64,000 nucleotides of DNA from Tsuneonella amylolytica (GTDB taxonomy: Bacteria; Pseudomonadota; Alphaproteobacteria; Sphingomonadales; Sphingomonadaceae). The notes beneath the pieces were generated by a model. The model had not been told where the DNA came from. It worked only from the letters and a program-made list of their open reading frames with translations, and ran no database searches. Each line of letters begins with the position of its first letter. Position 1 is the first letter of the stretch. Positions 6,797-22,792 of the stretch are shown here, in pieces. The stretch lies in contig NZ_CP032570.1 of NCBI RefSeq assembly GCF_003626915.1, forward strand, positions 2,107,001 through 2,171,000. Reading direction: 5' to 3'. A program made the translations under genes and the position numbers.

Positions 6797-7176
6797 CCGA
6801 AGCCAACACCGACATGGTCGATGCCGACGAGCAGGCGGGCAAGGAACTGCGCAAGTACGCCGCCGGCTTCGTCGCCAGCGCGGCGCTGACAGCGGGCGCC
6901 TTTGCCGCGGCAGTGTCGAACCTGACCACCGCGTGGAAAGTCGGCCTGATCTGTGCGGCGGCGGTGCTGCAGATCGCCGCGCACATGCTCGACTTCCTCC
7001 ACCTCAGTTTCTCAGGGAAGCAATCGCGCGAAGATCTGCTGCTGGTGCTGTTCTCGATCAGCCTGCTCGCCATCATGGCCGGGGGCACATGGTACATCAT
7101 GGCCGACCTCGGCGGACGGATGCACGAGATGACGGGGGAGGGCCACCGTACCCAGGCGGTTGCCTCCCCCGGGTAG
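6793..7176 (+). CDS. cyoD: Cytochrome bo-type ubiquinol oxidase subunit IV
   Basis: 127 residues with three predicted helices, containing QIAAHMLDFLHLSF, a recognisable part of the CyoD signature, and then a short polar tail. It overlaps cyoC by 4 nt and ends the operon. Subunit IV assists assembly of the CuB site. No cyoE (haem O synthase) follows, so that gene must lie elsewhere. The next gene is convergent, starting 7 nt away, with no obvious terminator between. Confidence 0.93.
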   Translation: MTEANTDMVDADEQAGKELRKYAAGFVASAALTAGAFAAAVSNLTTAWKVGLICAAAVLQIAAHMLDFLHLSFSGKQSREDLLLVLFSISLLAIMAGGTWYIMADLGGRMHEMTGEGHRTQAVASPG

Positions 7177-11017: not shown

Positions 11018-11791
11018 CTATCCGCGCGCGACGCTGGTTAGCGGCTCGCTGTCGACGGGATACCCGGCATCGGACGGGATACGCAGCCAGGTCTCCCCGC
11101 CGCGATCTTCCATCCAGGGCGTGATCGTGCGCACCGGGATGGCTTCGGCCTGCGCGCGCGCTTCGGCGTAGGATGCGAAGCCGGCGAGGCGTTCGAGATT
11201 GCGGCGGGTGGGGAAGATCAGCGCGAGCTCTCCGCGGTCGGCCGCTTCGAGCGCCCCCGCGGCGGTCGTCCAGAACAGGTGCGTGGTCTCGGTATCGTCG
11301 ATCTCGAGTTCGACCGCTCCGGTGCCGAGATCGGCGAGGTAGAACCGCGTGTCGAAGATGCGCGGGATGCGCTCGTTGCGTGGGTTCCACCGCGCGAAGG
11401 GCACGATCCGGTCGAGTTCCAGCGTCCAGCCCATCGCCTCGAGGACCGGTGCGAGTGCGCCGCTTTCGAGCAGGAGTTCGCGCGCGCGGCGTACCTCGTC
11501 GGCGGTCGGCTGCTGGGCGATGCCAACGGCAAGGCCGGTTTCCTCCAGAGCCTCGCGCACCGCAGCGATGCGATGGGCGGTCTCGTCCTCGTCGTCGCTG
11601 CCGAGGCGCGCCGCGAGGTCGCGGTCGGCATTGTCGAGCCGTCCGCCGGGAAACACCGCCATGCCGCCGGCAAAGGTCATCGCCTTGGCACGCACGGTCA
11701 TCAGGATTTCGGGCGGGCCGCCGTCGGCGGCGTTGCGGAACACGACGACGGTGGCCGCTGGGATCGAGGTGCGCTGTTCGGTTTCGCTCAT
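11018..11791 (-). CDS. Nudix hydrolase, NUDT19/CoA-pyrophosphatase-like
   Basis: 257 residues. FPGGRL begins a Nudix box that is interrupted by about 20 extra residues before AAVREALEETGLAVG; this enlarged box resembles the NUDT19/RP2p type of CoA diphosphatases more than classical MutT. Nudix enzymes hydrolyse nucleoside diphosphate derivatives with a divalent metal bound by the REALEE glutamates. The ATG at 11791 was preferred to a TTG three codons upstream. It is convergent with mobA-fdhD (3 nt between stops). Its substrate is not established. Confidence 0.88.
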   Translation of the reverse strand: MSETEQRTSIPAATVVVFRNAADGGPPEILMTVRAKAMTFAGGMAVFPGGRLDNADRDLAARLGSDDEDETAHRIAAVREALEETGLAVGIAQQPTADEVRRARELLLESGALAPVLEAMGWTLELDRIVPFARWNPRNERIPRIFDTRFYLADLGTGAVELEIDDTETTHLFWTTAAGALEAADRGELALIFPTRRNLERLAGFASYAEARAQAEAIPVRTITPWMEDRGGETWLRIPSDAGYPVDSEPLTSVARG

Positions 11792-11930
11792 TGCCGGCAA
11801 CCCTGCGCCTGCGCCGGTTGCTTGCCAAGACCGAAATGCGCGGGCGGCGTGTCGGAATTTCTTACAAAGCAGGTGTGTGCTAAGCCGCCCTTAACCATCG
11901 TGCCCGCGCAATTCGGCGCTTTTGCTAAAC

Positions 11931-11946
11931 TGGCACGCGGGTTGCA
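11931..11946 (+). promoter_or_regulatory. Sigma-54 (-24/-12) promoter
   Basis: TGGCAC at 11931-11936 and TTGCA at 11942-11946 are separated by the 5 nt required between the GG and GC elements, matching the RpoN consensus without mismatch. Predicted start of transcription is about 11957. No protein gene follows on this strand; the downstream DNA holds two hairpins. The core is nearly identical to that of the psp promoter at 22778-22792. No convincing enhancer sites were recognised upstream by eye. Confidence 0.72.
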
Positions 11947-11956
11947 CAGTGTGAGG

Positions 11957-12074
11957 TACCCAAACGGTCTTCCAAACGAGGCGGGACGTCAGTCTCCCAA
12001 GGTCCTGCCTCCCCGACCCAAGCGAACCCCAACGAAAAACCCGTCCGGCCTACCCAGCCGGACGGGTTTCTTGC
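11957..12074 (+). ncRNA. Candidate sigma-54-dependent small RNA
   Basis: From the predicted start (about 11957) the RNA would have an unstructured A/C-rich leader, a hairpin with a 9-bp stem including one G-U pair (11978-11986 with 12003-12011) and a 16-nt loop containing CTCCC, an A/C-rich single-stranded linker, and a perfect 13-bp terminator hairpin (12037-12049 with 12057-12069) with tail TTTCTTGCTT. Length would be about 115 nt. A pyrimidine CUCCC loop could pair with Shine-Dalgarno sequences, as in several alphaproteobacterial sRNAs. There is no start codon with a ribosome-binding site in it. The promoter and structure are seen; transcription and function are inferred. Confidence 0.55.
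12035..12071. terminator. Bidirectional Rho-independent terminator
   Basis: A perfect 13-bp stem (12037-12049 with 12057-12069) and 7-nt loop. Read on the minus strand, 24 nt after the grxD stop, it is followed by TTTTTCGTT and so ends the leuC-to-grxD run; read on the plus strand it is followed by TTTCTTGCTT and would end the candidate sRNA. Confidence 0.85.
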
Positions 12075-12092: not shown

Positions 12093-12422
12093 TCAGCCAG
12101 CCTTGGCGACGTTCTTCTCGTCCATCAGGGTCTGCAGTTCGCCGGCCTCGTACATCTCCATCATGATGTCGCTGCCGCCCACGAACTCGCCCTTGACGTA
12201 GAGCTGGGGGATCGTCGGCCAGTCGCTGAAGGCCTTGATGCCCTGGCGCACTTCCATGTCCTGCAGCACGTCGACGCTTTCGTAGCCGACGCCGCAATGA
12301 TCGAGGATCGCCACCGCTCGGCTCGAAAAGCCGCATTGCGGGAAGAGCGGGGTGCCCTTCATGAAGAGGACGACGTCGTTCTGGCTGACGATGTCGGTGA
12401 GGCGCTGGTTCACGTCGGACAT
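12093..12422 (-). CDS. grxD: Monothiol glutaredoxin Grx4 family
   Basis: 109 residues with the single-cysteine CGFS active-site motif ([11 protein letters not shown]), the [17 protein letters not shown] glutathione-binding stretch and the usual family length. Such proteins bind a [2Fe-2S] cluster as dimers or with BolA and hand it to target apoproteins or sense iron. A bolA-like gene lies 37 nt upstream on the same strand, the classical Grx4/BolA pair. A strong terminator follows. Confidence 0.96.
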
Positions 12423-22777: not shown

Positions 22778-22792
22778 GCAAGCCGCGTGCCA
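22778..22792 (-). promoter_or_regulatory. Sigma-54 promoter of the psp operon
   Basis: On the minus strand TGGCAC (22792-22787), a 5-nt spacer and TTGC (22781-22778) match the RpoN -24/-12 consensus exactly. Predicted transcription start is about 22766, some 40 nt before the first ATG. The divergent pspF gene encodes the expected enhancer-binding activator. Upstream, around 22868-22880, TTTTCGCTATTTG might be part of a PspF site, but this is weak. Confidence 0.85.

Follow-up and report, generated by a model that had tools for sequence, protein, structure and literature searches.

A candidate small RNA of Sphingomonadaceae with a conserved sigma-54 promoter and a putative PrsR-type enhancer box

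Small RNAs (sRNAs) transcribed from sigma-54 promoters with the help of enhancer-binding proteins include Qrr, GlmY, CrcZ, and NrsZ, which are activated by LuxO, GlrR, CbrB, and NtrC, respectively. In the portions of the published work drawn on here, proteobacterial PEP-CTERM genes are described as preceded by a 17-nt motif that ends in TTTACA and is followed by a sigma-54 site, with a spacer of 62.8 ± 10.6 nt (range, 32 to 92 bp); the motif is attributed to the response regulator PrsR, and the prediction of the PrsK/PrsR pair, made in 2006, rested on protein genes (Haft et al. 2006, PMC1569441). In Aquincola, the PEP-CTERM gene pepA was reported to need RpoN1, a predicted enhancer upstream of it is mentioned, and a plasmid carrying prsK or prsK-prsR failed to restore the Aquincola mutant (PMC9850573). 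The consulted sections of a paper on an exopolysaccharide pathway of Sphingomonas contain nothing on RpoN, PrsK, or PEP-CTERM (PMC11340318).

The locus described here lies in the window, i.e., the whole 64-kb stretch of DNA that was analyzed, and its features are collected in Table 1. The first-pass annotation had proposed a structured noncoding RNA starting at 11957 from a consensus sigma-54 promoter with no protein gene behind it, and it had named as checks an Rfam search, covariation of the stem among relatives, and conservation of the -24/-12 element. The promoter, TGGCACGCGGGTTGC, was found as proposed and the predicted start fits it; the transcript holds not a single ATG, GTG, or TTG, and the neighboring grxD gene is convergent. 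With a consensus -24/-12 element and an rpoN gene in the genome (2.79 Mb, one contig), we class the promoter as sigma-54 dependent. Folding of 11957-12071 with RNAfold gave -46.7 kcal/mol (z = -5.36), and none of 200 shuffled sequences folded equally well. The 13-bp terminator hairpin of the earlier reading was reproduced in this fold; hairpin 1 was also there, only in another size, with a 10-bp stem and a 14-nt loop instead of the claimed 9 bp and 16 nt. The 5' GGUC was paired with GACC in the minimum-energy fold. The inverted repeat of the terminator could also end grxD transcripts coming from the opposite strand.

Table 1. Positions of the predicted features and of the neighboring genes in the window
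Feature	Position	Strand	Basis or remark
Nudix gene, upstream neighbor	11018-11800	-	
17-bp PrsR-type enhancer box, TGTCGG-N5-YTTACA (predicted)	11850-11866	+	Conservation in homologs at fixed spacing
Conserved element TTAACCATCG between box and promoter	11891-11900	+	
Sigma-54 -24/-12 promoter TGGCACGCGGGTTGC	11931-11945	+	Sequence, motif scan
Predicted sRNA, about 115 nt	11957-12071	+	Start inferred from promoter spacing; fold, covariance models
Conserved 5' segment GGUCUUCC, candidate seed 1	11966-11973	+	Homolog alignment, fold
Hairpin 1	11978-12011	+	Fold, covariation
AGUCUCCC in the loop of hairpin 1, candidate seed 2	11991-11998	+	
Terminator hairpin	12037-12069	+	T-rich tail to 12074
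grxD (glutaredoxin), convergent neighbor, outside the unit	12093-12422	-	

Perfect matches to TGGCACGN4TTGC occur twice in the window, against about 0.04 expected from its base composition. The other one, at 22778-22792 on the minus strand, is the psp promoter, which lies between pspF (plus strand) and an opposite-strand 50-amino-acid frame followed by psp genes that we take to be pspA, pspB, and pspC. A looser sigma-54 pattern, allowing up to two mismatches, was not above chance in the window (23 matches versus 28.2 in shuffled sequences), nor was TGGCAN7TGC in the genome (97 versus 123 for the reversed control). Since such loose patterns do not exceed their controls in number, the promoter match by itself counts as modest evidence, and what lifts the locus above chance is conservation at a fixed spacing together with covariation of the stem.

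No Rfam 15 family reached its gathering score at the locus; the best match was Rhizobiales-2, with 22.3 bits where 40 are needed (E = 0.99). At the DNA level, 12 of 60 genomes, the source genome included, showed matches, and at least one of these (in G016) is not this locus. A covariance model (R1), trained on ten transcripts from which the promoters had been left out, had matches in 103 of the 298 genomes of the same family at an E value of ≤0.001, a figure that overcounts the true members because some of the weak matches are chance terminators. A second model (R2), whose training set included loci picked by the box-plus-promoter pattern, gave matches in 98 of 296 genomes when applied to the order, with all those listed belonging to the same family; applied to the class, it matched 6 of 385 genomes, and two of these lie outside the family. 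The two (L413 and L414, E about 1e-3) were rejected as chance matches, having neither an exact box nor GGCACGN5TGC. When 20 R1 matches were chosen for being weak or PrsR poor, 12 showed both promoter and box, neither with more than one mismatch (in one of these, G126, the box stands at 71), and 7 looked like a terminator only (G140, G143, G060, G035, G283, G151, and G226). The last of the 20, in genome G066 (locus L391), where PrsR is below the cut-off, has kept the hairpin with its GGTCTCC loop and shows neither box nor promoter.

Among 66 distinct aligned sequences, 18 of the 21 base pairs showed changes on both sides, and 95.8% of the cells were paired, versus 74.2% in shuffled and 42 to 50% in slid sequences; since the alignment behind these pair counts had itself been fitted to the model, they lean toward its structure. 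GGUCUCC, AGUCUCC, or a near form was found at positions 30 to 80 in 64 of these 66 sequences, and 89% of the bases in such segments were unpaired in single-sequence folds. Both the GUCUCC of the loop, which is mostly unpaired, and the GGUCUUC of the 5' segment are conserved. In some relatives, for example, at Novosphingobium loci, no terminator hairpin was seen by eye right after hairpin 1. A basal helix UUCG/CGAA, present in some species and not uniform, is not claimed. Locus L126 has three to four tandem GGTCTTCGATAATT-like units at the 5' end of the sRNA (about 6955 to 7020), downstream of the promoter, and in L124, L150, L110, and L093 a second GTCTCC/GTCTTC stretch was noticed by eye between complementary arms after hairpin 1. 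The RNA represents a family absent from Rfam and conserved in one bacterial family, which by its named relatives is Sphingomonadaceae. Open-licence PMC papers on this regulon or these bacteria yielded no sRNA at this locus; the RNA family and its link to the exosortase program appear to be new, and an sRNA with a sigma-54 promoter under a two-component activator is already known as such.

We then determined how the DNA upstream of the RNA is conserved. The box of the window, TGTCGGAATTTCTTACA, is 17 bp long, ends in CTTACA, and is separated from the promoter by 64 bp; the commonest end among the homologs is TTTACA. Thirty R1 loci were fetched, 7 of them from the ten training genomes, and for 29 the upstream DNA was readable, L088 being situated at the edge of a contig. 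In all 29, TGGCACGN5TGC was perfect and the box began 80 to 82 bp before the promoter (81 or 82 in 28, 80 in 1), with no mismatch in 24 loci, one in 4, and two in 1. In 20 R2 loci, of which 16 came from G-numbered genomes not read before and one of these 16 (L383) is identical here to a named locus, the promoter was perfect in 19 and the box, at 81 or 82 bp, had at most one mismatch in all 20 (19 perfect). Because R1 and R2 do not include the promoter, the conservation of the latter is for the most part independent evidence. A set of 46 distinct anchored sequences was left from 53 loci after the removal of four duplicates, of L088, and of L085 and L091, which have no GTCT in the expected interval. 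The box was at 81 or 82 in all 46, and the information content amounted to 1.43 to 1.46 bits per position in the box and 1.43 to 1.55 in the promoter, as against 0.45 to 0.72 in the spacer and 0.17 to 0.34 upstream. With covariation at 18 of 21 pairs, a -24/-12 element kept in nearly every strong homolog read, a terminator of its own, and rpoN in the genome, the reading of the locus as a structured noncoding sRNA is strongly supported.

The spacer holds one more conserved element, TTAACCATCG, and in most relatives TTAA stands five bases upstream of it. A CtrA site, judged by the CtrA consensus, was considered here and dropped, because the window has CTAA-N7-TTAACC and most relatives have TTAA-N5-TTAACC.

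In its length, its TTACA end, and its 64-bp spacer, the box agrees with the published PEP-CTERM motif, the comparison being with the motif as described in the text of that paper. We scanned named genomes for the box, N62-67, and the promoter followed by GTCT, the last being a weak filter that favors the sRNA, and obtained at least 120 stretches, of which 80 became loci with 81 sites. The sRNA was found by R2 at the promoter in 64 of the 80 listed loci, which belong to Erythrobacter, Qipengyuania, Novosphingobium, and others, and in all 64 its start was within -7 to +43 bases of the promoter end. Another 8 of the 80 (9 sites), including one Rhodocyclales, one betaproteobacterial, and one Acetobacteraceae bin, precede proteins with PEP-CTERM-like tails, 7 of the 9 over a curated cut-off. 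Five of the 16 sRNA-less loci (three from Sphingomonas, one from Sphingobium SYK-6, and one from a Sphingomonadales bin) have other hairpins, which in three cases contain GGUCUCC or GGUCUUC; the remaining three loci (L096, L132, and L154) were placed in neither group. The box can very probably be equated with the PEP-CTERM enhancer, and it is on this identification that the RNA is assigned, by sequence, to the PEP-CTERM/PrsR regulon; binding by PrsR is suggested by the motif, the gene content, and the co-occurrence described below.

The source genome has only two perfect boxes, one at this locus and one before epsB2, the leading gene of epsB2-prsK-prsR, and seven more with one mismatch. A consensus -24/-12 site follows two of these nine, namely, the one described here and one at G000:C1:2499589-2499663, and two further boxes have weak -24/-12 look-alikes downstream. 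At the latter locus (L060, minus strand), a one-mismatch box is followed 60 bp on by TGGCACGGGTTTTGC and then by an 80-amino-acid open frame that contains hydrophobic stretches and matched nothing in Pfam; it is likely a second PrsR target. The perfect box before epsB2 (L212, G000:C1:2700585-2700601, minus strand) is inverted and lies 52 bp before the predicted epsB2 start. No sigma-54 site was seen by eye between this box and epsB2; the box perhaps serves the autoregulation of epsB2-prsK-prsR.

Eight PF00158 matches, five of them strong, were found in the genome. The strong ones are an NtrC-type regulator (TIGR01818, 538 bits, the cut-off being 559), PrsR (TIGR02915, 663 bits), PspF (TIGR02974, 469 bits), and two further proteins, one that we take to be NtrX-like and one an unnamed response regulator; neither has an intact GAFTGA loop, so that both may be unable to activate sigma-54. 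The genes epsB2-prsK-prsR are present (prsK, TIGR02916, 459 bits; epsB2, TIGR03013, 485 bits), as are two exosortase-family matches over the cut-off. Of the 298 same-family genomes, 251 had a PrsR match above the cut-off. Against this base rate, all 55 genomes with an sRNA match at an E value of <1e-8 had PrsR at an E value of <1e-195, and overall PrsR was found in 96 of the 103 genomes with an sRNA match versus 155 of the 195 others (Fisher's P = 0.0015, kinship ignored). No sRNA match was obtained in 155 of the 251 PrsR genomes; divergent forms missed by the model may account for part of these. Seven of the 103 match genomes were below the PrsR cut-off, as judged by E-value conversion: two terminator-only ones; G066; G126, which is borderline; G184 (67% complete) and G304 (86%), which have the box, the promoter, and the sRNA; and G103 (97% complete), which has all three as well and is a real exception.

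Three other explanations have to be weighed. It is extremely improbable that the hairpins are only the terminator or 3' end of grxD and that the promoter match is due to chance, with no regulatory RNA being made. The distal hairpin can indeed terminate grxD transcription, and a crude motif test placed grxD downstream, on the opposite strand, in 91 of 123 box-plus-promoter loci, a number that includes duplicates and loci without the sRNA. However, hairpin 1 is conserved, loop included, and shows covariation, the box and the promoter are conserved at a fixed spacing, and no grxD was detected in five sRNA loci with at least 3 kb of downstream sequence (L097, L103, L142, L158, and L170). An sRNA activated from its sigma-54 promoter by a different enhancer-binding protein, such as PspF, at which the first-pass annotation had hinted, or NtrC, is unlikely as well. 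The genome does encode PspF and an NtrC-type regulator, and the psp promoter, 10.8 kb away, is likewise a perfect sigma-54 site, but no box within one mismatch was found near that promoter (the comparison being by the PrsR-type box only), and the sRNA box matches the PEP-CTERM enhancer and elsewhere precedes PEP-CTERM-like genes. The hint at PspF was thus not supported.

The remaining alternative concerns the mode of action. GGAGACC, the complement of a GGUCUCC loop, was found 2 to 10 nt before ATG at 46 sites in the source genome versus 8 for a reversed-pattern control, and in three relatives at 52 (control, 7; G012), 55 (control, 5; G290), and 16 (control, 13; G253) sites; the DNA was read for 46/46, 51/52, 52/55, and 10/16 of them, respectively. 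When 118 proteins of at least 50 amino acids from these sites were compared by blastp, no convincing conserved mRNA target emerged for this one 7-mer in the four genomes. Two genes with a GGAGACC site were common to three genomes, presumably those of ribosomal protein L5 and a rarA-like protein; the L5 site lies in the preceding gene, and the rarA-like case is a late internal reading. One gene, which we take to be rimP, was common to two relatives only. The search is a weak test, since the loop of the window RNA is AGUCUCCC and not GGUCUCC. At L305 in G012, GGAGACC stands just before the start of a gene that looks like hfq and is absent among the sites of the source genome. That the RNA binds a protein or sponges ribosomes or other RNAs, rather than pairing with specific mRNAs, is conceivable but rather doubtful. 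From genus to genus the GUCUCC and CCUCCCC segments do not vary, yet no conserved mRNA target was found, and tandem 5' copies or a second GTCTCC/GTCTTC hairpin, as in L126, L124, L150, and L110, would be expected of a sponge with several sites. A conserved unpaired pyrimidine loop is, however, the usual form of an mRNA-pairing seed too, and a target search with one 7-mer in four genomes is crude.

The explanation we favor, with a probability of about 0.85, is that of a trans-acting sRNA of Sphingomonadaceae activated by PrsK/PrsR and sigma-54 and pairing with purine-rich ribosome-binding sites. The promoter, the box, the rigid spacing, and the conservation and covariation of the RNA are there in the sequences, and so are rpoN, prsK, prsR, epsB2, and the exosortases; from these we infer transcription, PrsR binding, mRNA pairing, and the direction of regulation. 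When PrsK/PrsR of the PEP-CTERM/exosortase exopolysaccharide program is active, phospho-PrsR would bind the box and activate the -24/-12 promoter 64 bp downstream, and sigma-54 RNA polymerase would transcribe the sRNA. The predicted RNA of about 115 nt carries the pyrimidine-rich sequence GUCU(U/C)C twice, near its 5' end and again in the hairpin 1 loop. Both segments most likely pair with ribosome-binding sites of the GGAGA type, and this pairing would probably lower the translation of proteins unwanted in the exopolysaccharide or surface state. The conserved GUCUCC of the loop agrees with the proposal of the first-pass annotation that an exposed pyrimidine loop could block such sites. The pairing of the 5' GGUC in the fold of the window RNA speaks against the first segment being available. 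A further suggestion, which we put forward tentatively and consider somewhat less than an even bet, is that in much of the family this small RNA, and not only the PEP-CTERM proteins, is a main output of PrsK/PrsR, whose signal would then act largely by posttranscriptional reprogramming; it is prompted by the sRNA box being one of only two among the nine boxes with a consensus -24/-12 site downstream. If the sRNA is indeed under the PrsK/PrsR switch, it would be an easily measured reporter of that system and would link the control of exopolysaccharide and exosortase to RNA regulation in a common aquatic and soil family, for which we found one described sRNA, SuhB, in the literature; annotation would gain a new RNA family.

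With Qrr, GlmY, CrcZ, and NrsZ the locus, as interpreted here, shares the combination of a two-component activator, a sigma-54 promoter, and a small terminated RNA; it differs from them in the activator and the taxa, the sequences having been compared by the Rfam scan. Dv_sRNA2/DVU0679 of Desulfovibrio is, in the relevant part of its description, also an sRNA targeted by a response regulator, but the PEP-CTERM regulator of that organism is DVUA0057, whose targets include PEP-CTERM protein genes (PMC3333781). GsrN of Caulobacter is likewise an alphaproteobacterial sRNA, and its conserved C-rich loop pairs with a G-rich mRNA leader, which makes it, by analogy, an earlier case of a C-rich loop that acts on mRNAs. 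It is set apart, by description, in being sigma-T driven and in having BLAST matches limited to Caulobacteraceae, and in the passages concerned its authors did not find a gsrN-like gene in Erythrobacter litoralis (PMC5869019). SuhB of Sphingopyxis, as far as the consulted part of the report describes it, is an Hfq-dependent sRNA of a related genus, but it is 61 nt long and is linked to carbon catabolite repression, the sequence comparison again being the Rfam scan (PMC6563040). The PEP-CTERM/PrsR regulon, as outlined in the relevant sections of the original paper, has in common with this locus the 17-bp box ending in (T/Y)TTACA, the spacer of about 63 bp, the sigma-54 promoter, and a genome that encodes PrsK/PrsR plus exosortase; the members reported there code for proteins, in most cases PEP-CTERM proteins and in a few cases others, whereas the predicted product here is an RNA (PMC1569441).
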